Below, in pieces: positions 32,161 to 62,790 of a stretch of DNA of 64,000 nt. Numbering within the stretch: the stretch's first letter is position 1; every line of letters begins with the position of its first letter. The DNA comes from Membranipora membranacea (Eukaryota > Bryozoa > Gymnolaemata > Cheilostomatida > Membraniporidae): positions 9,253,501-9,317,500 of the forward strand of contig OU612074.1 of NCBI GenBank assembly GCA_914767715.1. Reading direction: 5' to 3'. The notes under the pieces are model-generated. The model saw nothing but the letters and a program-made list of their open reading frames with translations, did not search any database and was not told the origin of the DNA. The translations under genes and the position numbers were made by a program.

Positions 32161-32169
32161 ATACCATAT

Positions 32170-32516: not shown

Positions 32517-33857
32517 TGCTTACTCTAAGCCAGCCTTGAATATCAATAACCAGGGTATTTTCTGTAGATTTTTAGGAATTAGAAATCAAAGTTTATTTCC
32601 ACAGAGCGCACATAGCTACCGTTTTTGAATTAGGTATTAAAGTAAATGGTGTATGTGGTGGCACTATGATACGACATTCCACTGTAAAGTAAAGTCGTAT
32701 AGTCATTGGTACATTGGTATCCAGTATAGTATGAATCCCTTCGTAAAACTTACAACGGGATAGAGAATCTGGTTTCATTGCAGTGAATCTGGTGTTTTCA
32801 CCAACGTATCAGTAGATGAGGGGCCAAAATCTGAATTGTTAAAAGAGTGAGTTTCTCAACTCACTCATGATAACCTCCCTGACATAGCTGCAAGGTGACG
32901 GATTTAATGTCCTCTTTAGAAATACTCCCACTATCATGATAATTTTCTCAGTAGTTTTGTATGTATGCAAAAAACATTATCTTAGCTTCATGACCTAATA
33001 TTGCTTGGTTCGGGGTTTCACTAAATATGAAACATAATTTAATCCCATTTAGTTTTAATATTTTAATGTATATCTTTTGGATGTCATGGTCCATTTATGT
33101 TATCAATGCACCAAACAAGACAGAAGGTAGCTGATTCCTTGTCAAAATTGATGTTCCAATACACACTTTTTCTATTTGTTTACCATCACTTCCATTGCTC
33201 TATAAGGCTAGGGGAGATTTTGCAATCGAAGGTCATGGGATAGCCACTCTTTATTGATTGAAATAATGGCTAGTTTCAGAATATGTTTTGGCCAATAAGG
33301 TAGTATTTACAAAGTGAGCTTGGTTTAGGTAGTATGACTCGAACTATTTGGTTACGTAGATCGAGTCTTGTAGCCTAAAAGTGTGAAGCGTTGAAATGAA
33401 AAATTCAAAATGCCGAAGCAGTATATAGTATTTTCACTGATCATCGGTATGCAAGAGTTACATTGGACCCTGCCTGGTGTCAATTGCAAGTTAATTGTAC
33501 GTAAGAAATTAAAATAGTCATTCATCGACACGAACCACAACGGAAAATTTAAAGATGAGCATGTTAACCAGTTTTGAAGTATGCGGTCCTGCTTTTCTTG
33601 GCATGATAGATGATGGCATGAAGTTGTCTGCTGAAATTTGATTGATGAATTTTCAACCAAATCAAAACTCGAAGGCCAATCAAAATTGAAGACGTAACTA
33701 TCTTGAACTCATCCACGATAGCCTAGAAAGTAGAACTAAACTTGTAAGCGGAAAGGACTTTTTTGATAGGCTATCGTTTATTGTGTTTCAGTAAGAACAA
33801 AGCAACATAATTAAAGCATTTTTCAATGGTGGTGTGTGAAGATCACTGGATCAGCTC

Positions 33858-38182: not shown

Positions 38183-38345
38183 GTGGTGTAGTGGGTAAGA
38201 GCATGGACTGCTGATCACTAGGTCACTGGTTCGAGTCTGGGTTAAGGCAATGTTTTGACCAGCTACTACCATTTATAATGCCAGTAGTCTCGACCTGTAG
38301 TAAGAGTTGTCTGTCTCGACGAGACGACCCAGCCGGCACAGCTGT
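38183..38345 (+). mobile_element. tRNA-derived SINE nested in the hAT element
   Basis: Head reads GTGGTGTAGTGGGTAAGAGC (A box), then B box GGTTCGAGTC near 38229. It differs from the other SINE heads in the window and so represents a separate family. Confidence 0.65.
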
Positions 38346-39000
38346 ATCTAAACTATGTTGAAAAGATGTTTACCTTAGAGGCTGAACCACGTCTGCCTAA
38401 TGTGGCAATCTGTCACGCTATTATACGTTGGAATGGTGCATTTTATTAGATATTGTTACGATATATAAACTGCCTCTGCTACACATCTAACTAGAGGCTT
38501 GGATATACAGTAACCATGCGTTTTCTACACAGCAAATTTATACACAATATATCATACCTCAGTATTTATTTCATTTTCATTACCATTTATTAGATTTAAT
38601 ATCAATTAGCATTTAGGAGGGTGTTTTACTCATAGTGATTCAGTCCACTGTGGATGTTGAGTAGTAGGCCCATTAGACCATTGGACTTCTACTAGTGTAG
38701 GGTAAGTCATTGAGTCATTCGCAGTATAACTCTTGAAACTTATTTTGAATGCAATCTGGTTCAACTTTATTCGCAAAGAACATTAAGTGGTGCTTAATGC
38801 AGGTAATCTAAACCCTGGCTATTTATTAACCAATTTCAAAATACTGACATGTATTAATGTTTCAAAGTTATTGAATAATGGTTTATTTAAATAATTATAT
38901 TGCACTGTTGTGTTGTCACAAGGGCTTACCAAACGTTAGCAGCTTACCAGGGGAGATAAATGCAAGTAATGCATACAAATTCAACAGCTACGCAGTCATG

Positions 39001-39500
39001 AACGCATCGTTCCCATGCAGTTTAGAGACTAGATTTGATTTTAAGAAAATGGAATACAACAGTGCAAAATAGAATTGTACACGATTTGGAGCCACACAGG
39101 GTGTTAGCGAACAGATTGCAAAGCGTTTTTTTCCCATATGATGCCAGTATTCTTGCAAATTACTCTCTAGTAAAGTAGCTGTAGTTACTGCGCAGTTACC
39201 ATATTGCAAAAAACTGTGTTGCTTTTTATGCACCATTTATGCCTCTACGTGGTCATAAACGCATCATTCCCATGCGGTCTAGAGACTAGATTTGATTTTA
39301 AGAAAATGGAATAAAACAGTGCAAAATAGAATTGCACACAATTTGGAGCCACACAGAGTGTTAGCAAACAAATGGCAAAGCATTTTATCACATATAATGC
39401 CAGCATTCTTGCAAATTACTCTCGAGTAAAGTAGCTGTAGTTACTGCGCAGTTACCATATTGGAAAAAACTGTGTTGCTTTGTATGCACCATTTATGCAT
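39001..39500. repeat. ~257-bp tandem duplication inside the hAT element
   Basis: Two units begin at AACGCATCGTTCCCATGC (39001) and AACGCATCATTCCCATGC (39258) and stay alignable to about 39500. Differences scattered between the units show they are not recent. Confidence 0.8.
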
Positions 39501-41299
39501 CTACAAGATATTGAATGTTAAACGTGTACCATGCAACACAGAAACAACCCAATTGCGACATTGGAAACATGTTGCCGCATACAATGTGCCCGCTGGGGAG
39601 ATACTGTCTCGAGGAGACAAGTCTCGCGAGACCGGGAATTGTCTCGTCTCGTTGCCATCACTAGTCCATACAGTTTTATATAATGTGTATGTGTATAATG
39701 TGTTGGTAATATTTTCAAACAGAAATCACATGGTTCAAGAGAAACTCACGCAAACCATCAATTTTTGGATATAATTTGATGGCGCTAAAATTGACTAAAG
39801 ACTAGTTTTTACTGCACATGCGTACCATATTGGGAATCTAAACTCCTTGGTAGATAGAATTTACCATTAAAAAATTTGAAATTGGGAATGACAGTAAGCA
39901 GAAGCCACCAAGCACCAAATCCTACTACATAGCATACTGCACCAGGACTTTGTGTTCTATGTTAGGCAATACTACAAGGGGAGTATCTGTTGTGTACAAA
40001 ATGCCTACGCTGAAGAGTAACACTGTGAGGTATGGTGAGATATCACAATCACACTGGTTGACCCCAGATGTGTCTGGCACAATGAATTACAGCCGCTCTC
40101 ATCACATATCATGGTAGAGATTTCTAACTTTTTGTGATTTCTGTACCATTACTCAGACAGGGCTGGTTTCATATCCTCTTCTCATTGCGCCCAATTATTT
40201 GAGAATTAGATGCAAGAGAGGTGTAGTTTAGCATTGCTAAAAATATAATAGTCAACTGGTGCGACATATGCAAATAAGATACCAGCATCATCTACTCCCT
40301 ACAGCTTAGTCTAGCCAATTACTTGATTACAGTTGTCAATCAAGTATAATGCTAGGAATTTCTAATTATTTTTTGATATTTTGTACCACAATACAGACAT
40401 GACTATGTCTGGTTTTATGACCATCCTTATAAAGAAGAAGAAAGAGAGAGGGTTAACTCAGCCTCGCAAGAGGATATTATTCAACTAGTGTATAATATTA
40501 ACAGCAAGAAATCACCTGTATGCTAGTGTGTTTATCGCATTGTATGACCAACTGTAGGGATAAAAAAGGTCCATGATAATCAGTGGAGTCTCAAAACAGT
40601 AAGCCCCCAACAATGCTTACCTTACTAAGGGAAGGTTAACTGATCATATTTTTTCCCGTTGGTATAGCTTTACTATTTATGTTTAGGCACTCTTTCAATT
40701 TTTTTAACTACACACAATTGCTTTGTGGTGTTTTCCAAAAGAAGAAAGAAACATCTGCACCCTTAACCATCATAGTACTGCTGACTGCTGTGAGGTTCAC
40801 TATGCCGTCAATGATTATCTCACCGCTATGAGTATCCACTGAACTCAACAGAAAAAAGGGTTCTGATAAACATTAAAAATCATCGCAAGCATACAGGCCA
40901 ATCAATTGATATTTTGCATAGCTTAAAACTAAACCTGTTTTGGCTTCATATGCCAAAAGAGAATAAGAGTGATCAAAAGGCCCATTGGAGGATGTGGTTC
41001 ATATTACAAGCCCAATTAAAACCTAAGCGAATTGAGACTCATCATCATTCCGCAACGCCAATATTTTCCATTGACCGCAAAAAACAGTCCATGTCGCAGC
41101 ACACTCTAATGTAATAATAATGATAACAATGTTGCATTTTATCTAGGTAGATGATGAAGAGGTTTTTATAGTGACGACTAGGGTTCCGAGTCGATAGTGC
41201 CACTTTTCAACCACTGACAGCTTTAACCCAGCGTGAAGCATAGAGCTACAAGGCCGGAGCTGCAGTGGCAAGATGACAGCATCCTCCTGTATAGAGCTA

Positions 41300-41504
41300 A
41301 ACCATACAGGAGGGTTCTTTTATCTGCATGCACAATGTTATTGTACATACAGAAGACCTTCTTTGTTTTCAATCCTGTTCCGAAGGGACTGTGTGATCAG
41401 TCAAAGCCGAAGTGACTTTTGGGTTCCAATTGGGGTTCGAAACCCACAACCGGCTTGTCAAGTGGCAGAAGTGTTTACCACTGAGCCAAACTGACTGTCC
41501 CTAA
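41300..41504 (-). mobile_element. tRNA-derived SINE in unit B
   Basis: On minus: A box TTTGGCTCAGTGGTAAAC and B box GGGTTTCGAACCCC, then a body ending near CCTCCTGTATGG. Unit C carries the inverted counterpart at 47543-47755. Confidence 0.7.
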
Positions 41505-44500
41505 TGTAAACACAGCAAATTCCATAGGTATTTATTATGCAAGTTAAAGTCTTTCGTTGCAAAAAAATGGCAAGGCAATTGTAGTTAGCAATTAGAAAGG
41601 GTGCCTACACCAAAATATAAAAACACCATACCAACTGAAAAGGGACAGTTGGCCTCATCAGGTGACCTTCCTTTTTAAGAGAAAGGTCCCTATTGCAAAC
41701 AGCTGTCTGTGTTGAACCTTCACTGATGAGCATGTACTTTTACGACAGCTACAGTTGATCATACAATATGCACACAATCATACAGGTGGTTCCTTTCGTG
41801 TAGATTATAATTCCTGACATCTTGCAAGGCTGAGTTACACCTCTCTCATTTATTTTTCACAAAGAGCATGATAAACCAGACAGAGTCATATATGTATTGC
41901 GGTACAGAAATTAGATATAAATTCCTGCCATGATATCTGATGGTAGTAAATGTACTTAATTATTGGCAAGACATAGACTCTAGCGCGAAGTATATTGTAT
42001 GAATAGATTCTGTTGCAGATTCTCTCTAATTGAATACCATACTCTCACAATGCTGAACTAATAAAACTAGACGTATCTGAAGCTGGTTCAGAAATCACAA
42101 AAAATAGAGATTCCAACCATGACAAATAAGGGTAGCAACTGTAAATAATTAATTCATACAATATGCACACAACATCATACAGGTCATATATATTCTGAGG
42201 TTGCCTGCAAGCAATTATGGTGAGTATCTTTGCCTGGTTTTCAGAGATGATATATTTTTCTTTTTAACACTTTTATTGACATCGATCATTATCTAAAAGA
42301 TGCTCTTCCAAGTATGTCAATTAAACAACAACAACAAAACATAATAAAGTATGATAAAAGACAAGGTCATATGAATGAATTTGAGCATAATAATAATAAT
42401 AAAAAGGAATTGAAGCATAAGAGTGATTTGAAATACTTGAAGGCTGTTGACAGAAAGAAATCTTCTGTCTTTGGTAGGTCTAAGAGTGCCAGTTTACAGG
42501 CAGGAGTATAGAAGTGATACATATATATACGCTACCGGCCTGCCGTCTCTAGAGCGATTCTCAGCCTGTTTCTGGTTCTACGGGGAGATCGATCACACTG
42601 CTATTCGTACAGATGCATTCTTAAGCATTGCTACTGAAGGTATGAGAAACTGTGTTCGCCATTTAAATCTTTGAAGTCAACATGTTATTTTGAATTCACT
42701 AATTTCTTTTATAATCCTTTAGGAGACCTCAATAAAAAATCTAACTAGCATGATAAACTTTAACCCTATCGATACCTTAGGCTTGAGGAAGGCTCAGTAA
42801 GCCTTTTTATAGACACTGGCAAAATTATAAGCTGAGACATCAATGTTTACTGACACAGAAGTTTCTATTGTCTCACTGTCTTTTGACATAATGAAAGGTT
42901 GAACTTAAAGTAGAAGACAACACCGGCACCACTAAATACGTATCAAGATGCAATGAACCTTCACCAGTAGGCAACAAACTCAACAATAGAAATCCTAGGT
43001 ATAAGCTTGGATCTGCACCACAGGGCAGTCAGTAGCCCCTCCACCCCATGGCTGCAGTAAGCTGAATAAAGTTGAGAAGCTATTGTAATCTCGAAGAAAA
43101 TGCTTAGTGTTTGTTATTGATAGCAATAATATTGTTTTTGTGGATGATTTTGTAACTGAGATGACTGTTTATATATTTTGATATACACAACTAAAGATAG
43201 CTGCTTCGACTAATGAAAAAATAATTTCACACATCATTATTTTCCAATAATATATTTATTTGGAGAGTACGGGTATTTGTGTTACTAAAACAAAATGGTG
43301 GAAGAGACTTTGTAATTGAAATAATTTTTAAATATTTTAACTTTTATTTAAGGAGGAGTACATCATTACACATCAAATATCAAAATATTACTTTTGTGGT
43401 TGTCTTCCACTTTAAGGGTGTTTTCCTCAATGCATTTTGTATAAGTGATAGGGTCATTGATATGAATTTATGGATCACTGGTATTTGTGGAGATTTTACG
43501 TGATGTATTGGTTAACGTCCCAGTAACAACCTTAAAAAGCTCAGCCAAGCTACTTGACAAAAGTTAACAAGGGTCAGCTATTATCAATGAATGGAAATGC
43601 GGTCCAGCAACCATACATTAATAGCCATACGCTTGCTCCGCGTCAGATATGTTCTTCTCATCCATATAATACACATCGGATAGGGTATTCTCATCTGATT
43701 GAAAGAGAGTGAATTAGTTCCCATAGCTTTAGTAGAAGTACCATCAGGATTTGGTTTGACCCACGGTCAGATTCAATAATCATGGGTTTGAACATTTTTG
43801 GGTACTGTACTGGTATTTGTGTGAGAACAATTAGGGTTAATGAATTTCATAGAAATGTTTGACTGCTTCTGCTACTTATTCTTTATCAAGTAATGTTAAT
43901 AAATGCATGTCATATTAAAATAATTACAAACCTCTTTCCAAAGATGAGACAAGATGAATTTGCACCAGAATCATTCTCTGAGGCCCACCATTGCACTGAC
44001 AAATTGTATTTTCAATTTCAGAATCTGAGAACGAGTTTTTAGTCGAATTCACAGACAATGGCAGACTATTAGTAACCCATCGGGGCACACCAAGACTACT
44101 GATTGTAGCAGACAGTTCAGATGCAATCAATGCTAGATTTCTCGGCTGGAACAAGCATTGCTTCACATTCAAAAGTGATAACCAATTCAAAGTAAGTTTT
44201 TTTGAAAATCCACAATTAAGAAATTTTTTGATGATAAAATTTGCATGTCTCACATTGGATATTATCGCAATTACACTCTTGCAACCTGAACTGGAAGAGG
44301 AGAACGAAAGTTAGCTTTGATGACATTTTGTACAACTGGTTGGCACCGCTCATATCAGGAATGTTGTGTTGAGTTTCTGATTTGATGACAGTGATTTATG
44401 ATGTTTATTTCAAACATTGTCCCTGACACATTTTGAAATTAAAAAAACTCTAGTTGAATAGGTATTTTTTTGTCTGATAACTTAAGTTTCTCACATAGAA

Positions 44501-45329
44501 AATTCCACAATTGATGGTTTTGTGGCTGAAAGCAGCCAACACAATTCTTATCCCACAACAACGCAACCCAGCCGGATGATAAAGCTCATACATGGACTAA
44601 CAAATAATTATACGTCTTTACAATCCTTAAATTTGTTGCAATAATCATTGCAGTGGTATACTAAATCACTTGATGCTAATCATGATATGGAGTTGTAGTC
44701 TACTGTGGATGTGACCGATCAAATCATCAACGATGGCGGAACAATTGTCCTGCTTCAGGATCAAGACACACTTCGTAAGTTAAAATCAGCCATGATGATC
44801 TGAGATGAAACTTTACACAACTATGAGTGATGTAAACAACTTCAAACTGGATTCTAATTTTTTAATAGAAATATTTTTTATTTCAAAATATATTTTTCTT
44901 TAAATTTAGATATTTGCCATACAAAAATTGTTTAATGATTGAAATATTAAAATGTTTTTTATATTTGAATATACTATTAAAATATCTTTTTTAATTTTGT
45001 TATTGAAGGATTTGCAGCCAAAATTTGTTGGAAATTGGATTTGAACAATTTAAAAATTATGACATGACAAGACAAGAAGTGATTAAGTTTACATAGTTTA
45101 TTCTTTCCAGTTGGAGGCTTCAGTCGCCGTCAAACTGCTGTTGGAAGGCTTGCATTGTTCAATTTTTGGGGCTATGAGATGACATTGGATGAGATAATAG
45201 ACGTCAACTGTCTCACACATGGTGATATTCTTAGTATGGATGACCTGATTATTGGTGGCCCTGCAATCTTTGATGTGGAAGATGTCCCTTGTGAAGCAAG
45301 TACGACATAATTAATAAATAATAAATAAA

Positions 45330-45352
45330 TATATATATATATATATATATAA
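45330..45352. repeat. (AT)n microsatellite in the last Ptx1 intron
   Basis: A pure AT dinucleotide run; Ptx2 has the matching run at 60540-60566 with a different length. Confidence 0.9.
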
Positions 45353-45561
45353 TTAGAGTAGCAGTGCTTTGGTTTAGAAGTTCCATGATTCGTTGTTTGT
45401 AATTTTGTGTAGTAAGGAAGGGGCGGGCCTGACATGCCTTGTCTTGTCTTTGAGAAGGGGCTGGCAAAGGTAACTCGAATCAACCTGGTTTCAGGTGTCA
45501 AGGACCCATAGAACTCAACTGAACCGCATTCAAATTGAGGAAAACTGGGTGCTGTAAATGC

Positions 45562-45761
45562 TTGACTTACTTGACTTATGATGCTGAATGTCTCGTGACA
45601 CATAGCGGCTCCCATAACAGCTTCCCAGTTGCTTTCCACTCCTCCCTATCTTTCGCTATATTTGCTGCCTCATTCCAGGTCTTCACACCAACTGTCTTCA
45701 ATCGCTTCATAACCACTCTCCTCCAAGTTTCTTTCGGTCTTCCTGGCAGTCTCTTTCCTTC
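45562..45761 (-). mobile_element. LINE 3' end inserted in the last Ptx1 intron
   Basis: 200 bp with a 10-bp duplication CTGTAAATGC (45552-45561 and 45762-45771). Ptx2 has the uninterrupted site. Read on minus it encodes LPGRPKETWRRVVMKRLKTV and an RExWKA-like block, typical of the C-terminus of a non-LTR retrotransposon, then a stop. It ends with CATAAGTCAAGTAAGTCAA, the tail also carried by the lectin-intron SINE. It is absent from the sister copy, so it arrived after the pentraxin duplication. Confidence 0.8.
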
Positions 45762-47542
45762 CTGTAAATGCAGCCTCCCTATAACAAGAAAAATATCATC
45801 ATTAGGCTGTCCAGCACACCTACTTAATTTAAAGGATTAGCGAATTATTTTTGATCTGACCTTGGAGTAGAGAATAAATCCCGATGCCTTGATTCTGGTT
45901 GGTTCATCCCTTTCTTGACAATTAAGATAAAATGTTGAATAACGTCAAATTGATGCAGCAGCAATGACTCATAATTATATTTATTTTTATTAAGCGAGAA
46001 GAGAGACCCACTTTCAACCACAGTTCAGTTTCCACAGAGTTGTTGGGAATAATAAGCTGGAGGATGTAATTGCTTCCATACCAGATACACGACGTGCCAT
46101 CAGATGTTTGGTCCAGTGTACAAGGAGTAACCTATGCTTCTCTATTGGCTACAATGTAACTACTAAACTCTGCACGCTTTATAGAAACTACCAAATACTC
46201 GAGGATGACTTTGGAGGCTCGCTTGACAATTTGAGAAGATATAATCGTGTTGCTGCTGGGTTTTAGAGATTAGATAAAGGTCCAAGCTTGTTGATGCAAG
46301 TTGATAACTTAAATTTCATAAGGATAATTGCATTAGCATTTAGCCTTAACATTGTGAAGTCGGAACAAAAATCCTTGTCCCACACTAAAATAATCTTAAA
46401 TATATACCGAAAATTTATTCGGGCGAAAGATTCGTTGGGTGCCTGTAACCAGTACATAACCATGCCATCCAATGACTTACCTGGTCTAGGCAAGACCTTT
46501 TATTCCAGCAATACAAAAAGTTCAGTGACTAGCTGGTTTTTGTCTTGCTGATACAGGGACCATCCTAATTTATACAGGTAATGCAGTACCAAATTTCACA
46601 AACTAAAATCCTGGAAAGATAGAAAAGGAAAATTCATTTATATGTAGTTAGCAAATGGAAGGGTCGATGTTAGTTTTGGGAAATTCTCTAAGCGTCGATT
46701 GAAGACACTTGTTGTCATAGCTTACAAGGTAGCAGACTCCATGAAAAGTATGTGTTCACTGTTAGAATGACATTACCAGGTGTCTGCCATGTAAGACTAT
46801 CTGACAGAAACAGTGAAATATGGTGTGATATTGCACTGGATAAGCCCAGCTGGATAACCTCATATTTGAGCATACTGTCTAGCATATTAATTAATTATTT
46901 ACAGTTGCTACCCTTATTTGTCATGGTTGGAATCTCTATCTTTTGTGATTTCTGAACCAGCTTCAGATACGTCTAGTTTTATTAGTTCAGCATTGTGAGA
47001 GTATGGTATTCAATTAGAGAGAATCTGCAACAGAATCTATTCATACAATATACTTCGCGCTAGAGTCTATGTCTTGCCAATAATTAAGTACATTTACTAC
47101 CATCAGATATCATGGCAGGAATTTATATCTAATTTCTGTACCGCAATACATATATAACTCTGTCTGGTTTATCATGCTCTTTGTGAAAAATAAATGAGAG
47201 AGGTGTAACTCAGCCTTGCAAGATGTCAGGAATTATAATCTACACGAAAGGAACCACCTGTATGATTGTGTGCATATTGTATGATCAACTGTAGCTGTCA
47301 TAAAAGTACATGCTCATCAGTGAAGGTTCAACACAGACAGCTGTTTGCAATAGGGACCTTTCTCTTAAAAAGGAAGGTCACCTGATGAGGCCAACTGTCC
47401 CTTTTCAGTTGGTATGGTGTTTTTATATTTTGGTGTAGGCACCCTTTCTAATTGCTAACTACAATTGCCTTGCCATTTTTTTGCAACGAAAGAGTTTAAC
47501 TTGCATAATAAATACCTATGGAATTTGCTGTGTTTACATTAG

Positions 47543-47755
47543 GGACAGTCAGTTTGGCTCAGTTGTAAGCGCTTCTGCCACTTGACAAGCCGGTTGTGGG
47601 TTTCGAACCCCCAATTGGTACCCAAAAGTCACTTCGGCTTTGACTGATCACACAGTCCCTTCGGAACAGGACTGAAAACAAAGAAGGTCTTCCCTTCTGA
47701 ATGTACAATAACATCGTGCATGCAGATAAAAGAATCCTCCTGTATGGTATAGCTC
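47543..47755 (+). mobile_element. tRNA-derived SINE in unit C
   Basis: Counterpart of 41300-41504: A box TTTGGCTCAGTTGTAAGC, B box GGGTTTCGAACCCC. Confidence 0.7.
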
Positions 47756-50530
47756 TATACAGGAGGATGCTGTCATCTTGCCACTGCAGCTCCGGCCTTG
47801 TAGCTCTATGCTTCACGCTGGGTTAAAGCTGTCAGTGGTTGAAAAGTGGCACTATCGACTCGGAACCCTAGTCGTCACTATAAAAACCTCTTCATCATCT
47901 ACCTAGATAAAATGCAACATTGTTATCATTATTATTACATTAGAGTGTGCTGCGACATGGACTGTTTTTGCGGTCAATGGAAAATATTGGCGTTGCTGAA
48001 TGAAGATGAGTCTCAATTCGCTTAGGTTTTAAGTGGGCTTGTAATATGATCCACATCCTCCAATGTGCCTTTTGATCACTCTTATTCTCTTTTGGCATAT
48101 GAAGCCAAAACAGGTTTAGTTTTGAGCTATGCAAAATATCAATTGATTGGCCTGTATGCTTGCGATGATTTTTAATGTTTATCAGAACCTTTTTTCTGTT
48201 GAGTTCAGTGGATACTCATAGTGGTGAGATAATCATTGGCAGTATAGTGAACCTCACAGCAGTCAGCAGTACTCTGATGGTTAAGGGTGCAGATGTTTCG
48301 TTCTTCTTTTGGAAAAGACAACAAAGCAATTGTGTGTAGTTAAAAAAATTGAAAGACTGCCTAAACCTAAATTGTAAAGCTGTACCAACGGGAAAAAAAT
48401 ATGATCAGGTAACCTTCCCTCACACGAGTAAGGTGAGCATTGTTGGGGGCTTACTGTTTTGAGGCTCCACTGATTATCATGGACCTTTTTTATACCTACA
48501 GTTGGTCATACAATGCGATAAACACACTAGCATACAGGTGATTTCTTGCTGTTAATATTATACCCTAGTTGAATAATATCCTCTTGCGAGGCTGAGTTAA
48601 CCCTCTCTCTTTCTTCTTCTTTATAAGGATGATCATAAAACCAGACATAGTCATGTCTGCATTGCGGTACAAAAATATCAAAAATTAATTAGAAATTCCT
48701 AGCATTATACTTGGTTGGACTAAGCTGTAGGGAGTAGATGATGCTGGTACCCTAATTGCATATGTCGCACCAGTTGACTATTATATTTTTAGCTAAACTA
48801 CACCTCTCTTGCATCTAATTTTCAAATAATTGGGCGCAATGAGAAGAGGATATGAAACCAGCCCTGTCTGATTAATGGTACAGAATTCACAAAAAGTTAG
48901 AAATCTCTACCATGATATGTGATGAGAGCGGCTGTATCTCATTGTGTCAGACACATCTGGGGTCAACCAGTGTGATTGTGATATCTCACCATACCTCACA
49001 GAGTTACTCTTCAGCATAGGCATTTTGTACACAACAGACACTCTCCCTTGTAATATTGCCTAACATAGAACACAAAGTCCTGGTGCAGTATGCTATGTAG
49101 TAGGATTTGGTGCTTGGTGGCTTCTGCTTACTGTCATTCCCAATTCCCTGGGTTCCCAACCTTTCACATATAAAGAGCCAATTTCAAATTTTTAATGGTA
49201 AATTCTATCTACCAAGGAGTTTAGATTCCCAATTTGGTACGCATGTGCAGTAAAAACTAGTCTTTAGTCAATTTTAGCGCCATCAAATTATATCCAAAAA
49301 TTGATGGTTTGTGTGAATTTCTCTTTAACCATGTGATTTCTGTTTGAAAATATTACCAACACATTATAATATCATAAAAAAACTGTACGGACTATGGGAT
49401 GGAAAAAATATCAAGTGTGTAATATTTGACATCATGGAGTTTTTGATATGATCTATATCCTAAATCTGTGCCAATTGAGCTCAACGATTGCCATGATTGA
49501 ATACATTGCAATATTCATTGCAAACTTTGAAGAATAATTTTATGAAATTTATTGGTCAGTATTTTTGTTATGCATCTATCTTTATCAACAGAGTGGACAA
49601 CCTGTTGTCTTCATAGGGTCCTTTTTTATCAACCACTATTTCTAATTTTTGCGGCTCTTCATTTAGTGGAACCACCGAGTGGTCAGATTTGTAAAGCATA
49701 GGGAATCTTGGAAGAGGCAGGGATGGTCTTATTGTTGACAGTGCAGACACATGATCAACGAGGTCTGAGAGAGAGCACATTCTACGTACTATAACATTTT
49801 CGCAAATAATTAATTACTACCCCTTTTCATCATGGTTGGAATCTCTAGTTTTTGTGATTTGGATAAACAAGACAGATATGACTGGTTTTACATCCTTCTT
49901 TTATAGTACCCTATTAAGTGAGAATAAAATGTTAGTGATTTGAAGTTCAGCTTTGAAAGTGGATGGTAGCCAATCTGAGGGATTCTGCAATAGTATAAGA
50001 GCATAATCTGCACACTGGAGTATTCGTCTCACATTTGCTGCCCTTATTTATCATGGATGGAATCTCTATTTTTTGTCATATACAACTGGTTTTACATCCT
50101 CCTTCGTTCGTGCTAATGCATTTTAGAATACTATGGAGGTGATGTTTGGGTTAGCATTGCATGTGGATTGTAGTCAATATAAGATAACTGCAACAAGATA
50201 AGATCATAATCCACGCACAAGAGTATTTGCCTCAGCAATAATTAATTACAGTTACTACCATCAAATATCACTGTAGGAATTTCTAATTAATTGGTGATAC
50301 CGGCACCACAAGTCAGATATGACTGGTTTTATAACCTCCTAGTGACGAGATAATACTTATTTCCTGTTGCAGTTATCCTTAATTAACCGTGCTACTCTCG
50401 CAACTCCAAGCTAAGCTCTCTCTAAGCTTTAGCTCTCTCTTGTTAGTGAATATTTGGGCCAAATACCTAAATACCTGGATGTGTCTGAGAATTTCAGCTA
50501 ACTGGTGTCTAAAATTTTCTCTGCTGATAG

Positions 50531-50618
50531 TATATAAATGAGTGTTAGGAAAGTAATCGATCAAACTCATACAGGGAACTGACTGCAATCTGTCTGCTTA
50601 TTACTGATTTATCAGAAG
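50531..50618 (+). promoter_or_regulatory. Lectin C TATA box and 5' UTR exon
   Basis: TATATAAAT at 50531-50539; UTR exon ends at 50618 with CAGAAG/GTACGT. The acceptor at 50804 precedes the coding ATG by four bases. Confidence 0.65.
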
Positions 50619-50808
50619 GTACGTATCAAAACTAGTTCTATAATGTCTGATTGAACCGAGAAATATTTTGGGTCAATTATTGCTGGATCATCATGAAATA
50701 GAAACCGAGATTAGGAATTATTTACAGAATTTGTCAATCTTTTTGCTCATGTTAATTACTGTCATCCATTACTATTGCTCATGTTGGATGTATGGTGTTT
50801 ATAGGATA

Positions 50809-53317
50809 ATGACTCATAAATATGCTGTACTCGTGGTTATCTGTGCTGTGACTGTGGCGTGCTCAGGTAAGTGAAACAACTCCTTAAAAATATTCCATGT
50901 TGCAGCTGAAAAGTTTCCATTTTGTTTAAATTGTTAAGGAAAACAAAATACAACCACTGTTCATATCAAAGCTTTGCCAGGGCTATGAATAAAAAAAAAG
51001 GTTGTTATTATTTCATAAAACTTCATTATTGAACGATGTAACCTCATTTAAAGTTTGAAAACCCAGGTTCTAGAAGGGTCTAGAGGATGTTATCTCTCCT
51101 GTCACAGTTTCACATCAAGATATCTTTGACCATGCTCTGTTACATGGGAGATAACATACTCTAGACCCTTCTAGACCCTGGGTTTAAGCACTTTGAATAA
51201 GATTACATCCTTCAATAATGTACTCATGCAAGTTAATTTGGTTTTTTTGTTCATTGCTATGGGAAAGCTTTAATATGAACAGTGGTTGTTTTTTTACCAT
51301 CCTAAACATTTTAAAATCAAGAATTTAGGTATTTATTTTGATGTCAATTTAAAATGGCTATCCAACACAAAATATGCCCATGAAAAGCTGAAGCAGCGTT
51401 TTTATGCATTTTCCAGGCTCAACTATTTTAAACCAGATATTATGCCATTAGAAAAACTATTTCATTCAAAGCCTGATTAAGCCTGTTTTAACATACAACT
51501 GTAACTGTGGTTTAACTCTGCTACTAATGAGCAGAAAAAAAAGCTGACTAAACCGTTTCAGAAGAGAAAAATTGTGTCTTGGATATCAATTTTTATTTGA
51601 GGAATACTGTACATAAAACCAAATTGTTTTTATTGCTGATCCTTCCCATGTCTGCACAGCACATGCACAGCAGCTATGAGACTAATCGTAATTTCTATAG
51701 AACGCTAAAGGCGAAAATATTTTTTGATATTGTTGTACATTTCAGTATTCGTGTATTAAATGACTGATGTCACTCTATATTTCAAATCACAGAGAACGTC
51801 TTAATTGTAATGTGTCCCTGACATTGTTACTGAAATAAACTGATTGTCATTCTCAAAATCAGTTTTAGTATGTTCAAGATAACCAGAGTACAGTTAATAA
51901 CACAACCGCGCCAGATTATTTGCATAGACCACGTTTGATCTAATTTGCCTGCTTTTTGGTGATTTCAATTCAACTGGTGAGATGCCTGCAATCGGATCAA
52001 TTATCTTATGTCTGTTTCCCATGAGTTGCCATATTCTCTGCCCCTCCCCCCCCCCCCCCCGTCCCCCTCTAAATATCAGTCAGAAATTTATAGTCACAAA
52101 TTAAAAAATTGAGTATTGACAGCAGTGCATTATACTTGTTACTAATATAACCTTAGACATTTTATCCCGACCACGCTTGGTTGAACAGACTTTTTTCTTT
52201 CAATACTGGCATGCTGACCAGATTTCTGATTGAAGGAACGGTGTGAAAAACATAAAGCCTATCATTGGCTTTTAACAATAGTTCTAAGTTTTCCTTACCA
52301 TTAGGTTTTCCTTAGTTTGTTGAGGGAGGGCAACTTCTCATTCTAGTTGACCTGGGTATTTTTCAAGTCTTGAGCCTGATTGCCAAGACAAGGAGAGTAT
52401 TATAACAGCAGAAAAGATCTTTTTTGTACCAAAAACTTTATTTATCATTACATAGGTGCTGAATGTGGAGATGGTTGGGTGCACATCAAGTCTGCGACTG
52501 GAAAAATTTGCTATAAACTATTTGAATCCAGGGTTAGCTGGGCTACCGCTGAACAAACCTGTGAAGCCCATGGCGCTACTTTGGCATCAGTTAGATCTCC
52601 CGATGAGCTGATATTTGTGACCGGATACAAAATGGTATTTCTGGGTAGGTGAATTTGACTTACTTGACTTATGTTGCAGAACTCCTAGTATAGTGGAATA
52701 TTGCGCCAGAATCGCCTTCTCCTTTTATCTAGCCCGATCTCTCGCCATCTCGCCAGCCTCTGCTCACGACTTAATGTTGTGCACATTCATCTGCTTAAGC
52801 GTGGTTCTCCGCTAAGTCTCTTTGGGTCACCCTCTCCTTCGGGTGCCCTCAGGGGCCCACCCGAGACTGGTGTGAGGTGGAGGTGAACTTAAGATTGCTC
52901 AAGCATAGTGTCAAGTGGGTTTACAATCTACATAAATATGTTAAAAGTTCGGCTGTTAAACTTTGGCGCAAATATTTTAATCTTCGCTAAGCAGTCAGTG
53001 TACAAATCATTTTTGGCTGTCCAGAACATTGTAATCCATTGATCATTTTATAATCCTATTCATATTTTCTATTACCAGGAAAGTCCTATATGTGGATGGG
53101 AGGCAAGGAACTAGCAGGGGGAAAGTGGTATTGGCAAGATAGATCTGGATGGACTCCATTACAGGCTGACGGATTCTGGGGCCCTGACCAACCAAACAAC
53201 CGTCATGGGAACCAGGATTGCCTAGCTATCTGGGGAGATTCAGAGGCCAGATATGTACAATGGTGTGACGAGGCATGCTGGGAAAAATACAGCTTCATGT
53301 GTGAGAAGAGGATATAA
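50809..53317 (+). CDS. C-type lectin C (secreted, single CTLD, diverged coding sequence)
   Basis: Coding exons 50809-50866, 52456-52644, 53079-53317; 486 nt, 161 residues, splice sites and phases as in A and B. The signal peptide is MTHKYAVLVVICAVTVACSG. The CTLD keeps AECGDGW, WATAEQTC, WMGG, QPN and WCD. Compared with lectin A by eye, the first CTLD exon has ten base changes, nine of them amino-acid changing, and the second has eight, five of them changing (P/S, K/E, F/Y, G/D, G/W). Neighbouring intron sequence looks less diverged. Its AATAAA is at 53393-53398, within the same hairpin as in A and B. Intact. Confidence 0.88.
50951..51288. repeat. Long palindrome in lectin C intron 1
   Basis: Same structure as 35883-36219, complete in both arms. 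Confidence 0.75.
51286..51767 (+). mobile_element. LINE fragment in lectin C intron 1
   Basis: Counterpart of the fragments in A and B. Here a small deletion shifts the frame after NYFKPDI, so the first part ends MPLEKLFHSKPD. Confidence 0.65.
52657..52880 (-). mobile_element. SINE-like insertion in lectin C
   Basis: Counterpart of 26394-26617. The duplication copies are 52647-52656 and 52881-52890, the second with one change. Its tail, TTGACTTACTTGACTTATG on plus at 52655-52673, is identical to the LINE tail at 45562-45580. Confidence 0.75.
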
Positions 53318-54626
53318 GAGCTGATCCAGTGATCTTCACACACCACCAGTGAAAAATGCTTTAATTATGTCTCTTTGTTCTTACTGAAACACAATAAACG
53401 ATAGCCTATCAAAAAAATCCTTTCCGCTTACTTTCTAGGCTATCGTGGATGAGTTCAAAAAAGTTATGTCTTTAATCTTGATTGGCCTTCATCTATCATG
53501 CCAAGAAAAGCAGGACCGCATACTTCAAAACTGGTTAACATGCTCATCTTTAAATATTCCGTTGTGGTTCGTGTCGATGAATGACTATTTTAATTTCTTA
53601 CGTACAATTAACTTGCAATTGACACCAGGCAGGGTCCAGTGTAACTCTTGCATACCCATGATCAGTGAAAATACTATATACTGCTTCGGCATTTTGAATT
53701 CTGCATTTCAACGCTTCACACTTTGAGGCTACAAGACTCGATCTACGTAACCAAATAGTTCGAGTCATACTACCTAAACCAAGCTCACTTTGTAAATACT
53801 ACCTTATTGGCCAAAACACATTCTGAAACTAGCCATTATTTCAACCAATAAAGAGTGGCTATCCCATGACCTTCGATTGCAAAATCTCCCCTAGCCTTAT
53901 AGAGCAATGGAAGTGATGGTAAACAAATAGAAAAAGTGTGTATTGGAACATCAACTTTGACAAGGAATCAGCTACCTTCTGTCTTGTTTGGTGCATTGAT
54001 AAGATAAAAGGAACATGACATCCAAAAGATATACATTAAAATATTAACATAACATAACAATAAACATAATGTGATTAAATTATGTTTCATGTTTAGTGAA
54101 ACCCCGAACCAAGAAATATTAGGTCATGAAGCTAACATCAAGTTTTTTGCATACATACAAAACTACTGAGAAAATTATCATGATAGTGAGAGTATTTCTA
54201 AAGAGGACATAAAATCTGTCACCTTGCAGCTATGTCAGGGAGGTTATCATGAGTAAGTTGAGAAACTAACTATGTTTAAAGGAACAATACACTTCTGATT
54301 CTGTTTGACAGCCAACGCAGCTCTCATCTACTGATGCATTGGTGAAATCACCAGATTCACTGCAATGAAACCAGATTCTCTATCCCGTTGTAAGTTTTAC
54401 GAAGGGATTCATACTATAATAACATAGCAACATATTTCGATGATATAGCTAGCAGGAATTTTATTTTGTGTTCATAAAATTTGTCACCACTCTAGACATT
54501 CTGCATAACAGATTGGTGTACATCCTCTTCTAATCCTACTTACACAAATTTATAATTAATTAACATCCTTAGTAAAAGGGACAGTAATCTGATAATTACC
54601 CTTAAATTTTCAGCAAATATCATAAA

Positions 54627-55357
54627 TGTTGTCTACAATAAATGTAGAACTACAGCTTTTATTACGAGATACAACATACAGTGGTGCGCGTACCACTGCA
54701 CAACACACAGGTCTTCAGCTAGAAACCATGAGTCAAGCGGTGTTTCGAGGCCTTCTCTAGTACAAACCTCCTCATGGCCGGCCCCAGCAGCATGAAGCCA
54801 CCCCCGTGTGTTGATGAGCATCCCAATCAACCTCATCGATCCCTCAGTGCATTTTGTAAGTTTCAGTGGTTTGACATAATTGATGTGTTTACGCTGTTGC
54901 TCAACCAGGGAGGCTGCCAACTCGTCATTGTTTCAGTGCAACAATGTTCGCCCCATCACTCTCATGCTTATCTCAAGCCAAACTAGTGCAGGGAGGTTTG
55001 CTTTCCATCAACTCATCGGCGCAACATCGCTAATCGTCAAGGCACCCGCCCTCGTGCCATAGTTCACTACTCAAATTCACCACATTGAGCATAGTACAAC
55101 TCATACACAAGTCAGAGAGATGACTTGTTTGCGCTACAGCCAGTGGGCTGACTGTGATCTCCTGTCTCGCTCTGCCTCCTTTTTATACGATGGCCAAGCT
55201 TTTAATCCTATGTTTGTAATGCCTTAGATCTAACTCAGACTCACTTTGATTTTTCACCCTGCAGAGATCAAACTACTTTAATTTGAGTATTAAAGGAATA
55301 ATCCCGCTTAGCCTTCTACCCCGAGCAGTTTGCTAATCATCACTTAATCCCCTCAAT
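54627..55357 (-). mobile_element. Truncated LTR-like sequence in unit C
   Basis: Inverted copy of 23860-24590 with the TATA-like box near 55190 and the AATAAA complement near 54656. It is cut off just before the transposon at 55366. Confidence 0.4.
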
Positions 55358-55365
55358 CTTCCACA

Positions 55366-56247
55366 CATGGGCGTCAGAAGGGGTGCTCAGGGTGCTCAAG
55401 TGAGCACCCCTTGGGAGGTTTAAAACTTTTTTTTAACAATTGGAGTTGTTTATCCTTGTTAGTGTCAGAGGAACTCCTTGTAGCCAATAACTGGGCCAAT
55501 CATTTTGCCCTGTTGTTGTTGTTGCCCAATCAACATAAATTCTTAATAGTTCATCTGATCAATTATCCACATTTATCAAACTTTTTAAAAAAAAAAAAAG
55601 TTGTGTGGGAGAGGAAGATGTGTGAGCATAGTGTAGTTACTGGCGCTAAATAACTATCTCAGGCGAACACAGACATCCCAAAGGCTCGATTCTCTGGCCC
55701 TCATTAACATCCACTGCTCTGATGAGGTAGACGTGGGCCAGGTAATCGATTCCTTTTCCAGGCTACACAGCAGAAAACTGGAGCTGGGTACGATTGAACC
55801 ATTCTGCAATGTCAATGACTAATAATCAATCAAATAAGGCCTAATAAATAATGGTCTTGCAGGTGCAAGAATGCTGTATGTATTTACTGGTAGTTCACTA
55901 AGTACTCTTTGGTCTGTTTTTAATCCAACCATTTTTTAAATTTGTTCACGAATAAACTATCTATCTAGGCTACTACCAGGGAACTCAGTGTTTTCTTTTA
56001 TCGCTAGAACTTTCAATCGGGGCCCGGGCAAGAGGCTGTTGCTGTTAAATACTTTTGGTATCATGCTTGGTGTTGCTCATCCATAAAAGTTGGCTGGTAT
56101 GTACCAGAATGTCTCTTTTTGGGTCTCGAATTTCAAAAAATTTCCCTCGGCGGGAGGGCGCTTGGGCGCCCCTACCGCACCCTCCCCGCCACTAACTACT
56201 CCACAGCTAAAAGAAGCACCCCTTGGTAAATCCTTCTGACGCCCATG
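55366..56247. mobile_element. DNA transposon with CATGGGCGTCAGAAGG ends
   Basis: 882 bp bounded by CATGGGCGTCAGAAGG and its exact complement. Inner sequence repeats (GGGGTGCT...AGCACCCC) extend the inverted ends. No transposase frame was found. A GC-rich hairpin module at about 56150-56200 resembles that in the element at 14253-14667. It lies between unit C and the Ptx2 promoter. Confidence 0.75.
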
Positions 56248-56889
56248 GAATGGAAGCCTATTTGACTGAGTACATTTTCTTGAACAGTTGCTATTTTAGT
56301 CCAATAATATCAATAGGTTTTGGCTTTATAAAATTGTAACTGGAAAAGCTTTTAGATAAATTGCATTGCTTCCTGCTGTAGAGACATGACATTTCTCAAT
56401 ATCGTATACTTTGAAATAAAGTCAGCGAAATATGGAAGACATGTCAATTGCAAACAAAAGGCTGAAGCTTTATGTAAGCAGGGTCAAAGTACCCAGCAGC
56501 ATGCAGTAAACGAGAATGTACAAAATTAATTAAATTGGTGTTGCTGATACGTATTTGCTTTTTCCTATAGACATTTTCTGAATTTAATTTGCTGATGGCT
56601 CAGTGAATATACATAGATTGAATTTGCTGACTTGAATCACAAGACATATCAGTCATCAGCGAGATGGGTCTTCGTTTCAAGAAGGCTTTATACTTAAGCT
56701 GTAATGTTCTCTTCCTCTTATATATTCTGAGGTTGCCTGCAAGCAATTATGGTGAGTTTCTTTGTCTGGTTTTCAGAGATGATATATTTTTCTTTTTAAC
56801 ACTTTTATTGACATCAATCATTATCTAAAAGATTTTCTTCCAAGTATGTCAATTAAACCACAACAACAAAAAATGATAAAATATTCGAG
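56248..56889 (+). repeat. Extra copy of the Ptx promoter and signal-peptide exon
   Basis: Duplicates the sequence about 669 bp downstream, including an intact 88-nt exon (56664-56751) with the same GTGAGT donor. The joint lies near 56882, where the copy switches to the native upstream flank (TTCGAGCCTTTGCC). Ptx2 thus has two candidate first exons with near-identical signal peptides. Confidence 0.8.
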
Positions 56890-57332
56890 CCTTTGCCAAG
56901 GTAGTGTGTAATGATTGAATGGAAGCCTATTTGACTGAGTACATTTTCTTGAACAGTTGCTATTTTAGTCCAATCATATCAATAGGTTTTGGCTTTATAA
57001 AATTTTAGCTGGAAAAGCTTTTAGATAAATTGCATTGCTTCCTGCTGTAGAGACATGACATTTCTCAATATCGTATACTTTGAAATAAAGTCAGCGAAAT
57101 ATGGAAGACATGTCAATTGCAAACAAAAGGCTGAAGCTTTATGTAAGCAGGGTCAAAGTACCCAGCAGCATGCAGTAAACGAGAATGTACAAAATTAATT
57201 AAATTGGTGTTGCTGATACGTATTTGCTTTTTCCTATAGACATTTTCTGAATTTAATTTGCTGATGGCTCAGTGAATATACATAGATTGAATTTGCTGAC
57301 TTGAATCACAAGACATATCAGTCATCAGCGAG

Positions 57333-60300
57333 ATGGGTCTTCGTTTCAAGAAGGCTTTATACTTAAGCTGTAATGTTCTCTTCCTCTTATATATTCTGAG
57401 GTTGCCTGCAAGCAATTATGGTGAGTTTCTTTGTCTGGTTTTCAGAGATGATATATTTTTCTTTTTAACACTTTTATTGACATCAATCATTATCTAAAAG
57501 ATGTTCTTCCAAGTATGTCAATTAAACCACAACAACAAAAAATGATAAAATATGATAAAAGACAAGGTCATATGAATGAATTTGAGCATAATAATAATAA
57601 TAAGGAATTGAAGCATAAGGGTGATTTGAAATACTTGAAGGCTGTTGACAGAAAGAAATCTTCTTTCTTTGGTAGGTCCAAGAGTGCCAGTTTACAGGCA
57701 GGAGTATAGAAGTGATACATATATATACGCTACCGGCCTGCCGTCTCTAGAGCAATTCTCAGCCTGTTTCTGGTTCTACGGGGAGATCGACCACACTGCT
57801 ATTCGTACAGATGCATTCTTAAGCATTGCTACTGAAGGTATGAGAAACTGTGTTCGCCATTTAAATCTTTGAAGTCAACATGTTATTTTGAATTCACTAA
57901 TTTCTTTTATAATCCTTTAGGAGACCTCAATAAAAAATCTAACTAGCATGATAAACTTTAACCCTATCGATACCTTAGGCTTGAGGAAGGCTCAGTAAGC
58001 CTTTTTATAGACACTGGCAAAATTATAAGCTGAGACACCAATGTTTACTGACACAGAAGTTTCTATTGTCCCACTGTCTTTTGACATAATGAAAGGTTGA
58101 ACTTAAAGTAGAAGACAACACCGGCACCACTAAATACGTATCAAGATGCAATTAACCTTCACAAGTAGGCAACAAACTCAACAATAGAAATCCTAGGTAT
58201 AAGCTTGGATCTGCGCCACAGGGCAGTCAGTAGCCCCTCCACTCCATGGCTGCAGTAAGCTGAATTAAGTTGAGAAGCTATTGTAATCTCGAAGAAAATG
58301 CTTAGTTTTTGTTATTGATAGCAATAATATTGTTTTTGTAGATGATTTTGTAACTGAGATGACTGTTTATATATTTTGATATACACAACTAAAGATAGCT
58401 GCTTCGACTATGGAAAAAAATAATTTCACACACCATTATTTTCCAATAATATATTTATTTGGAGAGTACGGGTATTTGTGTTATTAAAACAAAATGGTGG
58501 AAGAGACTTTGTAATTGAAATAATTTTTAAATATTTTAACTTTTATTTAAGGAGGAGTACATCATTACACATCAAATATCAAAATATTACTTTTGTGGTT
58601 GTCTTCCACTTTAAGGGTGTTTTCCTCAATGCATTTTGTATAAGTGATAGGGTCATTGATATGAATTTATGGATCACTGGTATTTGTGGAGATTTTACGT
58701 GATGTATTGGTTGACGTCCCAGTAACAACCTTAGAAGCCTCAGGCAAGCTACTTGACAAAAATTAACAAGGTTCAGCTATTATCAATGAATGGAAATGCG
58801 GTCCAGCAACCATACATTAATAGCCATACGCTTGCTCCACGTCAGATATGTTCCTCTCATCCATATAATACACATCAACGGATAGGGTATTCTCATCTGA
58901 TTGAAAGAGAGTGAATTAGTTCTCATAGCTTTAGTAGAAGTACCATCAGGATTTGGTTTGACCCACGGTCAGATTCAATAATCATGTGTTTGAACATTTT
59001 TGGGTACTGTACTGGTATTTGTGTGAGAGCAATTAGGGTTAATGAATTTCATAGAAATGTTTGATTGCTTCTGCTACTTATTCTTTATCAAGTAATGTTA
59101 ATAAATGCATGTCATATTAAAATAATTACAAACCTCTTTATTTCTCTTTCCAAAGATGAGACAAGATGAATTTGCACCAGAATCATTCTCTGAGGCCCAC
59201 CATTGCACTGACAAATTGTATTTTCAATTTCAGAATCTGAGAACGAGTTTTTAGTCGAATTCACAGACAATGGCAGACTATTAGTAACCCATCGGGGCAC
59301 ACCAAGACTACTGATTGTAGCAGACAGTTCAGATGCAATCAATGCTAGATTTCTCGGCTGGAACAAGCATTGCTTCACATTCAAAAGTGATAACCAATTC
59401 AAAGTAAGTTTTTTTGAAAATCCACAATTAAGAAATTTTTTGATGATAAAATTTGCATGTCTCACATTGGATATTATCGCAATTACACTCTTGCAACCTG
59501 AACTGGAAGAGGAGAACGAAAGTTAGCTTTGATGACATTTTGTACAACTGGTTGGCACCGCTCATATCAGGAATATTGTGTTGAGTTTCTGATTTGATGA
59601 CAGTGATTTATGATGTTTATTTCAAACATTGTCCCTGACACATTTTGAAATTAAAAAAACTCTAGTTGAATAGGTATTTTTTTGTCTGATAACTTAAGTT
59701 GCTAACATAGAAAATTCCACAATTGATGGTTTTGTGGCTGAAAGCAGCCAACACAATTCTTATCCCACAACAACGCAACCCAGCCGGATGATAAAGCTCA
59801 TACATGGACTAACAAATAATTATACGTCTTTACAATCCTTAAATTTGTTGCAATAATCATTGCAGTGGTATAATAAATTACTTGATGCTAATCATGATAT
59901 GGAGTTGTGGTCTACTGTGGATGTGACCGATAAAATCATCAACGATGGCGGAACAATTGTCCTGCTTCAGGATCAAGACACACTTCGTAAGTTGAAATCA
60001 GCCATGATGATCTGAGATGAAACTTTACACAACTATGAGTGATGTAAACAACTTCAAACTGGATTCTAATTTTTTAATAGAAATATTTTTTATTTCAAAA
60101 TATATATTTCTTTAAATTTAGATATTTGCCATACAAAAATTGTTTAATGATTAAAATATTAAAATGTTTTTTATATTTAAATATACTATTAAAATATCTT
60201 TTTTAATTTTGTTATTGAAGGATTTGCAGCCAAAATTTGTTGGAAATTGGATTTGAACAATTTAAAAATGATGACATGACAAGACAAGAAGTGATTAAGT

Positions 60301-61270
60301 TTACATAGTTAATTCTTTCCAGTTGGAGGCTTCAATCGCCGTCAAACTGCTGTTGGAAGGCTTGCATTGTTCAATTTTTGGGGCTATGAGATGACATTGG
60401 ATGAGATAATAGACGTCAACTGTCTCACACATGGTGATATTCTTAGTATGGATGACCTGATTATTGGTGGCCCTGCAATCTTTGATGTGGAAGATGTCCC
60501 TTGTGAAGCAAGTACGACATAATTAATAAATAATGAATGAATATATATATATATATATATATATAATTAGAGTAGCAGTGCTTTGGTTTAGAAGTTCCAT
60601 GATTCGTGGTTTGTAATTTTGTGTCGTAAGGAAGGGGCGGGCCTGACATGCCTTGTCTTGCCTTTGAGAAGGGGCTGGCCAAGGTAACTCGAATCAACCT
60701 GGTTTCAGGTGTCAAGGACCCATAGAACTCAACTGAACCGCATTCAAATTGAGGAAAACTGGGTGCTGTAAATGCAGCCTCCCTATAACAAGAAAAACAT
60801 CATCATTAGGCTGTCCAGCACACCTACTTAATTTAAAGGATTATCGAATTATTTTTGATCTGACCTTGGAGTAGAGAATAAATCCCAATGCCTTGATTCT
60901 GGTTGGTTCATCCATTTCTTGACAATTAAGATAAAATGTTGAATGACGTCAAGTTGATGCAGCAGCAATGACTCATAATTATATTTATTTTTATTAAGCG
61001 AGAAGAGAGACCGACTTTCAACCACAGTTCAGTTTCCACAGAGTTGTTGGGAATAATAACCTGGAGGATGTAATTACTTCCATACCAGATACACGAAGTG
61101 CCATCAGATGTTTAATCCAGTGTACAAGGAGTAACCTATGCTTCTCTATTGGCTACAATGTAACTTCTAAACTCTGCACGCTTTATAGAAACTACCAAAT
61201 ACTCGAGGATGACTTTGGAGGCTCGCTTGACAATTTGAGAAGATATAATCGTGTTGCTGCTGGGTTTTAG
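57333..61270 (+). CDS. Ptx2: secreted pentraxin-PAN protein (6 exons)
   Basis: Exons 57333-57420, 57676-57837, 59234-59403, 59866-59986, 60323-60511, 61044-61270; 957 nt, 318 residues; all introns GT-AG, phases consistent. Residues 1-28 form a signal peptide (MGLRFKKALYLSCNVLFLLY...). Residues 35-240 read as a pentraxin/LamG beta-sandwich: FSACFWFYG, WNKHCFTFKS (the conserved Cys pair), GGTIVLLQDQDTL, then GRLALFNFWGYEMTLDEI and a C-terminal VPCEA. The last exon encodes a PAN/apple-like module (CLIQCTRSNLCFSIGYN...LCTLY). Pentraxins are calcium-dependent soluble recognition proteins; PAN modules bind protein or sugar. AATAAA lies at 61369-61374. The frame is intact. The exon 2 acceptor (TTTGGTAG) was chosen because it alone keeps phase with the signal exon. 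Confidence 0.85.
60540..60566. repeat. (AT)n microsatellite in the last Ptx2 intron
   Basis: AT run matching 45330-45352 in Ptx1. Confidence 0.9.
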
Positions 61271-62283
61271 AGATTAGATAAAGGTCCAAGCTTGTTGATG
61301 CAAGTTGATAACTTAAATTTCATAAGGATAATTGCATTAGCATTTAGCCTTAACATTGTGAAGTCAGGAATAAATATCCCTGTCCCACACTAAAATAATC
61401 TTAAATATATACCGAAAATTCTGGCGAAATTCGTTGGGCACCTGTAACCAGTACATAACCATGCCATCCAATGACTTACCTGGTCTAGGCAAGACCTTTT
61501 ATTCCAGCAATACAAAAAGTTCAGTAACTAGTTGGTTTTTGTCTTGCTGATACAAGGGACCATCCTAATTTATTCAGGTAATGCAGTACCAAATTTCACA
61601 AGCTAAAATCCTGGAAAGATAGAAAAGGGATATTTATTTATATGTAGTTAGCAAATGGAAGGGTCGATGTTAGTTTTGGGAAATTCTCTAAGCAGTGAAT
61701 TACAGAATTTAGACCAAATGGGTCGATTGAAGACACTTGTTGTCATAGCTTACAAGGTAGCAGACTACATGAAAAGTATGTGTTCACTGTTAGAATGACA
61801 TTACCAGGTGTCTGCCATGTAAGACTATCTGACAGAGACAGTGAGATATGGTGTGATATTGCACTGGATAAGCCCAGCCGGATAACCTCATATTTGAGCA
61901 TACTGTCTAGCATATTAATTAATTATTTACAGTTGCTACCCTTATTTGTCATGGTTGGAATCTCTATCTTTTGTGATTTCTGAACCAGCTTCAGATACGT
62001 CTAGTTTTATTAGTTCAACATTGTGAGAGTATGGTATTCAATTAGAGAGAATCTGCAACAGAATCTATTCATACAATATACTTCGCGCTAGAGTCTATGT
62101 CTTGCCAATAATTAAGTACATTTACTACCATCAGATATCATGGCAGGAATTTATATCTAATTTCTGTACCGCAATGCATATATGACTCTGTCTGGTTTAT
62201 CATGCTCTTTGTGAAAAATAAATGAGAGAGGTGTAACTCAGCCGTGCAAGATGTCAGGAATTATAATCTACACGAAAGGAACC

Positions 62284-62790
62284 AGGAAGAGAAGATTACA
62301 GCTTAAGTATAAAGCCTTCCTGAAACGAAGACCCATCTCGCTGATGACTGATATGTCTTGTGATTCAAGTCAGCAAATTCAATCTATGTATATTCACTGA
62401 GCCATCAGCAAATTAAATTCAGAAAATGTCTATAGGAAAAAGCAATACGTATCAGCAACACCAATTTAATTAATTTTGTACATTCTTGTTTACTGCATGC
62501 TGCTGGGTACTTTGACCCTGCTTACATAAAGCTTCAGCCTTTTGTTTGCAATTGACATGTCTATCATATTTCGCTGACTTTATTTCAAAATATACGATAT
62601 TGAGAAACGTCATGTCTCTACAGCAGGAAGCAATGTAATTTATCTAAAAGCTTTTCCAGCTAAAATTTTATAAAGCCAAAACCTATCGATATGATTGGAC
62701 TAAAATAGCAACTGTTCAAGAAAATGTACTCAGTCAAATAGGCTTCCATTCAATCATTACACACTACCTTGGCAAAGGCTCGAATAATTC
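62284..62790 (-). pseudogene. Detached promoter and first 53 coding nt of Ptx1
   Basis: On minus, the start codon at 62336-62334 is followed by 53 coding nt, ending abruptly at 62284. The sequence beyond 62336 matches the Ptx2 upstream region to about 62770 (CCTTGGCAAAGGCTCGAA). Joined to 42185-42219 it makes an 88-nt exon like that of Ptx2 with only a few substitutions and an open frame. This is the other half of the exon cut by the inversion. Transcription from here would now run into unit-flank repeats. Confidence 0.85.

Follow-up and report, generated by a model that had tools for sequence, protein, structure and literature searches.

A probable 20-kb inversion with one breakpoint inside a signal exon in a lectin and pentraxin-like gene cluster of Membranipora membranacea

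The window analysed here is a stretch of 64,000 nt from the bryozoan Membranipora membranacea (assembly GCA_914767715.1, contig OU612074.1, forward-strand positions 9,253,501 to 9,317,500), which has 37.4% GC and contains no N; all positions are counted from its first base. It carries three paralogous units, about 8-15 kb long, all of which contain a C-type lectin gene and two of which a pentraxin-like/PAN gene as well. The best reading of the locus by far, and a very probable one, is that the 20,099-bp segment 42185-62283 of this cluster is a real inversion. Such an event is an ordinary, known kind of chromosome rearrangement, and both of its cut sites are readable here.

Self-alignment placed unit 1 (A) at 23846-32168 and the left part of unit 2 (B) at 32725-42158, with the exons of lectins A and B, respectively, on the minus strand, and gave an inverted span, 55370-46885, for unit 3. 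The inverted part of unit 2 (56245-62283) holds a pentraxin-like/PAN gene with intact first exons. Unit 3 (C), inverted at 42185-55370, holds a pentraxin-like/PAN gene without a start, followed by lectin C on the plus strand (52380-53314). Two C-type lectin frames were found in lectin C, the second (53054-53314) scoring above the PF00059 cut-off of 22.6 bits (32.5 bits, E 1.6e-7) and the first (52380-52649) below it (19.5 bits, E 0.0017); lectins A and B were recognised by similarity to lectin C only. The open frame 45994-46263 (plus) of the unit 3 pentraxin-like gene contains a PAN domain (PF00024, E 2.6e-5, 24.4 bits against a cut-off of 21.4). The genes are called pentraxin-like because the Pentraxin family profile PF00354 scored below its cut-off (about 12 bits against 25, E 0.16-0.18) with an incomplete exon model. 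The sole two PDB sequences at E<=10 with the pentraxin-like query were neuronal pentraxins (E 0.12 and 0.21), and protein searches with the pentraxin-like and lectin concatenates resulted in 207 and 17 candidates, respectively, none at E<=0.001. In the self-comparison of the window, the pentraxin-like part had no listed match in unit 1. At the end of unit 1 (32169-32712) is a repeat, which also occurs in inverted form at 14253-14620, and then a copy of 22755-22947.

The signal exon of the unit 3 pentraxin-like gene was found in two pieces. Its first 53 nt, with the ATG, lie at 62284-62336 on the minus strand, and its last 35 nt, followed by GTGAGT, at 42185-42219 on the plus strand. Rejoined, the pieces form an 88-nt exon with an open frame, which differs from each of the intact signal exons of the unit 2 gene (56664-56751 and 57333-57420, plus) by 3 substitutions and no indels. 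The initial annotation had proposed the same 53 + 35 nt exon with no base lost, in agreement with these two intact copies. The sequences outside the exon pieces match as well. The 5' region of the split gene (62284-62789, minus) is paralogous to 56879-57384, with 10 mismatches in 505 nt (2.0%), and differs from 56210-56715, at the other first-exon copy, by 15 in 485 nt (3.1%); the inner flank of the split locus differs from unit 2 by 2.8% in the first 500 nt and by 1.7% over 3.4 kb. Judged by these alignments, the outer and inner flanks look like two halves of one old locus, and their similar divergence from unit 2 (2.0% and 2.8%) fits this. The intact exons belong to a 669-bp tandem duplication (56245-56884 and 56914-57553, 99.2% identity) with two identical 88-nt signal exons and GT donors; the surviving unit 2 gene may thus have two first exons.

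The left junction, 42184/42185, reads ...CATCATACAGGT|CATATATATTCTG, and the right junction, 62284/62283, read on the minus strand, ...CTTCTCTTCCT|GGTTCCTTTCGTG. The unbroken form of the non-exon site, TACAGGTGGTTCC, is present at 41781-41793 and in unit 3 at 47262-47250 on the minus strand, where the cut point corresponds to 47256/47255. The uninterrupted partner that had been placed at 41780-41800 is intact, but it is an extra copy and not the vacated site. Because both break sites share a T ahead of the cut, its position is ambiguous by at least one base. When all 49 combinations of shifts from -3 to +3 were tested, the exon-side mismatches were 5-7 per 120 nt in the 7 cancelling combinations and 41-51 in the other 42; the 7 are too alike, so the cuts are placed only to a few bases. 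No homology beyond about one base was detectable between the exon and the sequences that it now adjoins, referred to as L and S.

The orientation of the repeats in the window was determined before and after reversal of 42185-62283 in silico, with slightly different thresholds (E<=1e-30, word 16 as assembled; E<=1e-20, word 11 reversed). As assembled, 22 self-alignments of at least 150 nt were found, 18 of them at 90% identity or more, half direct (9) and half inverted (9). After reversal there were 24, comprising 16 direct alignments, all at 90% or more, and 8 inverted ones; the latter consist of 7 repeats at 67-77% and an 89% repeat pair outside the flipped segment (14253-14620 and 32169-32518). 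The inverted share at this length and identity thus fell from 9 of 18 to 0 of 16, and a single flip undoing all 9 is more than chance. Alignments also became continuous at both ends: in reversed-window coordinates, a 3.9-kb direct alignment spans the signal exon (43693-47589 with 58907-62789) and a 1.5-kb one spans L|S (42154-43702 with 57184-58706). In the assembled window, a second pair, 42184-47256 and 57385-62284, is direct. The junctions are reciprocal and both sites are restored by the reversal, as expected of a two-break inversion. The rearranged anatomy, the reciprocal junctions and the intact paralogous sites are direct observations. The self-comparison, which the initial annotation had named as a check, upheld its view that 42185-62283 is inverted, and the inversion also accounts, as it had stated, for lectin C alone lying on the plus strand while lectins A and B lie on the minus.

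The left breakpoint is accompanied by a duplication. An alignment of units 2 and 3 showed a gap of 397 nt, corresponding to extra sequence in unit 2 (41788-42184). Its first 367 nt, S copy 1 (41788-42154, plus), recur inverted as S copy 2 (61917-62283, minus), which begins exactly at the right breakpoint and has 4 differences to copy 1. The last ~30 nt (42155-42184, plus) repeat 41759-41787, the end of L, apart from 2 inserted nt, and abut the left breakpoint. The undisturbed paralogous site in unit 3 (46885-47626, minus) has L, S and a third sequence, M, in this order, with S in single copy. In the present order the duplication is a 367-bp inverted duplication flanking the inversion; with the flip undone in silico, unit 2 keeps a tandem duplication whose copies are spaced 397 nt apart and whose junction is ~30 bp from the break. 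The inversion had been described as clean, which holds for the joins, where no base was gained or lost, and not for the left breakpoint with its 397-nt duplication. Over 367 sites (listed site 368, the first base of the adjoining ~30-nt copy, was excluded), the two S copies differ at 4, copy 1 and the unit 3 S at 2, and copy 2 and the unit 3 S at 4. In a comparison of 41491-42158 and 61653-61981 with 46653-47552, the identity of units 2 and 3 was 98.7-99.3% in the three 300-nt windows at L-S-M, 94.7-98.0% in six windows to the left and 95.7-100% in those to the right; this raised identity is a weak hint of gene conversion.

Judged from the sequence alone, the assembled order is the derived one, because two intact exons are present in unit 2, and L|S is intact in unit 3, next to the breakpoint and also on contig C2 (L019), in a diverged copy of the repeat. 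The alignment of this copy crosses L|S at 85% identity and spans 359 columns, about 58 nt of them in S; this suggests that an old repeat continues through the left breakpoint site rather than ending there. For the same reason, S as a transposon whose end is the cut site was not favoured. L-S (40379-40712 and 41562-41983; L020 and L021) is a member of an old family of dispersed repeats, which includes inverted copies at about 67-89%, and the end of S lies within about 4 nt of where several copies of this family stop.

A tandem array of three direct units would have come first. Later, two breaks at sites without homology to each other, one at L|S of unit 2 and one within the signal exon of the unit 3 pentraxin-like gene, would have released the segment now at 42185-62283, and end joining would have put it back in reverse, whereby lectin C and both pentraxin-like genes would have moved to the plus strand. 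End joining and this order of events are what we infer, the order from the anatomy, since the S differences are too few to put the inversion after the unit duplication. The left cut would be tied to the 397-nt duplication, which may be part of the same event as the inversion. Some observations sit uneasily with any simple form of this course: the 397-nt duplication is not expected from a plain blunt inversion, nor filler that stops exactly at the base preceding S from a plain staggered one, and the 4 differences in 367 bp of S, compared with 1.7-2.8% between the units nearby, are too few sites for dating.

Within the inversion, two courses were weighed. With about an even chance, the 397-nt tandem duplication came first and a blunt two-cut inversion then hit the duplicate; this accounts for the ~30-nt copy ending at the exact base before which S begins across the break, at the price of a coincidental cut ~30 bp from the duplication junction. 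With a chance just short of even, a single event with staggered cuts 367 bp apart would have created both inverted S copies by fill-in and added ~30 nt of templated local filler. Inverted S at both ends of the inversion and single S in unit 3 agree with such an event, as does the staggered-break footprint described in the available text of PMC7584159, but a prior tandem duplication would look the same, and the filler ending where S starts needs an extra reason, e.g. copying to the end of a broken template. The former course has a slight edge because the ~30-nt copy stops at the very base preceding S. Homologous recombination between the S copies was rejected as the cause, since it would flip 42155-61916 and leave the exon uncut. 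DNA hairpins at the three intact 121-nt sites, folded as single strands, were no better than shuffles (z of -0.07 for the exon at 57325-57445; 1.74 and 1.04 for L|S in units 2 and 3).

An assembly artefact, be it a contig placed in reverse or a switch from one near-identical inverted arm to the other, is very improbable. Long inverted paralogues do exist at the locus, but arm switching joins homologous positions, and it cannot make the present joins, contrary to the alternative raised in the initial annotation: as the exon has no detectable homology to L or S beyond about one base, only chimeric molecules, and reciprocally, could have produced them. Moreover, the joins show no gain or loss, and the window without N has no gapped scaffold join at either site. 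Least probable of all is that unit 3 was copied inverted and was never direct, since such a segmental duplication, for which the inverted units at about 95% identity speak, fails to explain why the exon lies in two complementary parts of 53 and 35 nt at a distance of 20 kb and why one flip restores collinearity at both ends.

In the surroundings of the inverted segment, a search for unit copies in the flanks of the window (10 kb on the left, 20 kb on the right) gave only 10 repeat alignments of 176-361 columns (E<=1e-20). The rest of the genome (339 Mb, 18 contigs) was searched with two junction queries only (200 and 424 nt), and the long near-identical matches were all inside the window. A Threonine-rich frame with an ShK domain (Pfam E 4.6e-7) was found at 14931-15314.

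Regarding the genes, lectin C and the unit 2 pentraxin-like gene, with both signal exons intact, were flipped whole. The unit 3 pentraxin-like gene is now apart from its promoter side, ATG and first 17 codons. The 53-nt half reads into GGTTCC and reaches a stop after five more codons, the first of which is a hybrid. Rescue of the decapitated gene by its new upstream sequence was rejected: upstream of 42185 the frame of the 35-nt half is open only to 42153 and has no in-frame ATG, a new spliced first exon not having been searched for. Three later stretches of the gene are all open in comparison with unit 2; one is identical over 77 residues, one has 1 residue different within the shared frame, and the PAN stretch differs at 6 of 90 residues. 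Thus either the loss is recent or the sequence is still constrained. The decapitated copy has presumably lost its function.

The inversion is legible almost to the base, and paralogues in the same window preserve its undisturbed sites, so that the mechanism can be studied without a reference individual. It illustrates one route of gene-copy loss in tandem lectin/pentraxin-like arrays and, if polymorphic, would be a marker of cluster turnover. The S copies now face each other across 19.8 kb as 367-bp inverted repeats with 4 differences, beside kilobase-long inverted lectin units. That this immune-type cluster flips repeatedly by homologous recombination and segregates in several orientations is unlikely; if true, S-S flips would restore the old gene orientation and yet keep the exon split, which would be a recognisable signature.

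A literature search for inversions combined with lectin, pentraxin or cluster found no paper. In comparison with known inversion types, the present locus resembles inversions by homologous recombination between inverted repeats in that it now has long inverted paralogues; however, such recombination places the breakpoints inside inverted homologous sequence, whereas the breaks found here are at the margin of the homologous arms or beyond them, and the joined sequences are unlike. According to the available text of PMC7584159, no duplications are expected of blunt (cut-and-paste) inversions; both joins here agree with that type in showing no gain or loss, and the 397-nt duplication abutting one break would be a difference if the event itself made it. 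The same text describes an inverted duplication as the footprint of staggered breaks, notes that repair alone could also create one, and reports, for one breakpoint in Drosophila, a 59-bp and a 534/540-bp pair of duplicates. The non-homologous joins are shared with these staggered-break (isochromatid/chromatid) inversions; in contrast to those described there, the present inversion is 20 kb long, lies inside a tandem gene array with one breakpoint in a coding exon, and has a ~30-nt extra copy adjoining one duplicate.
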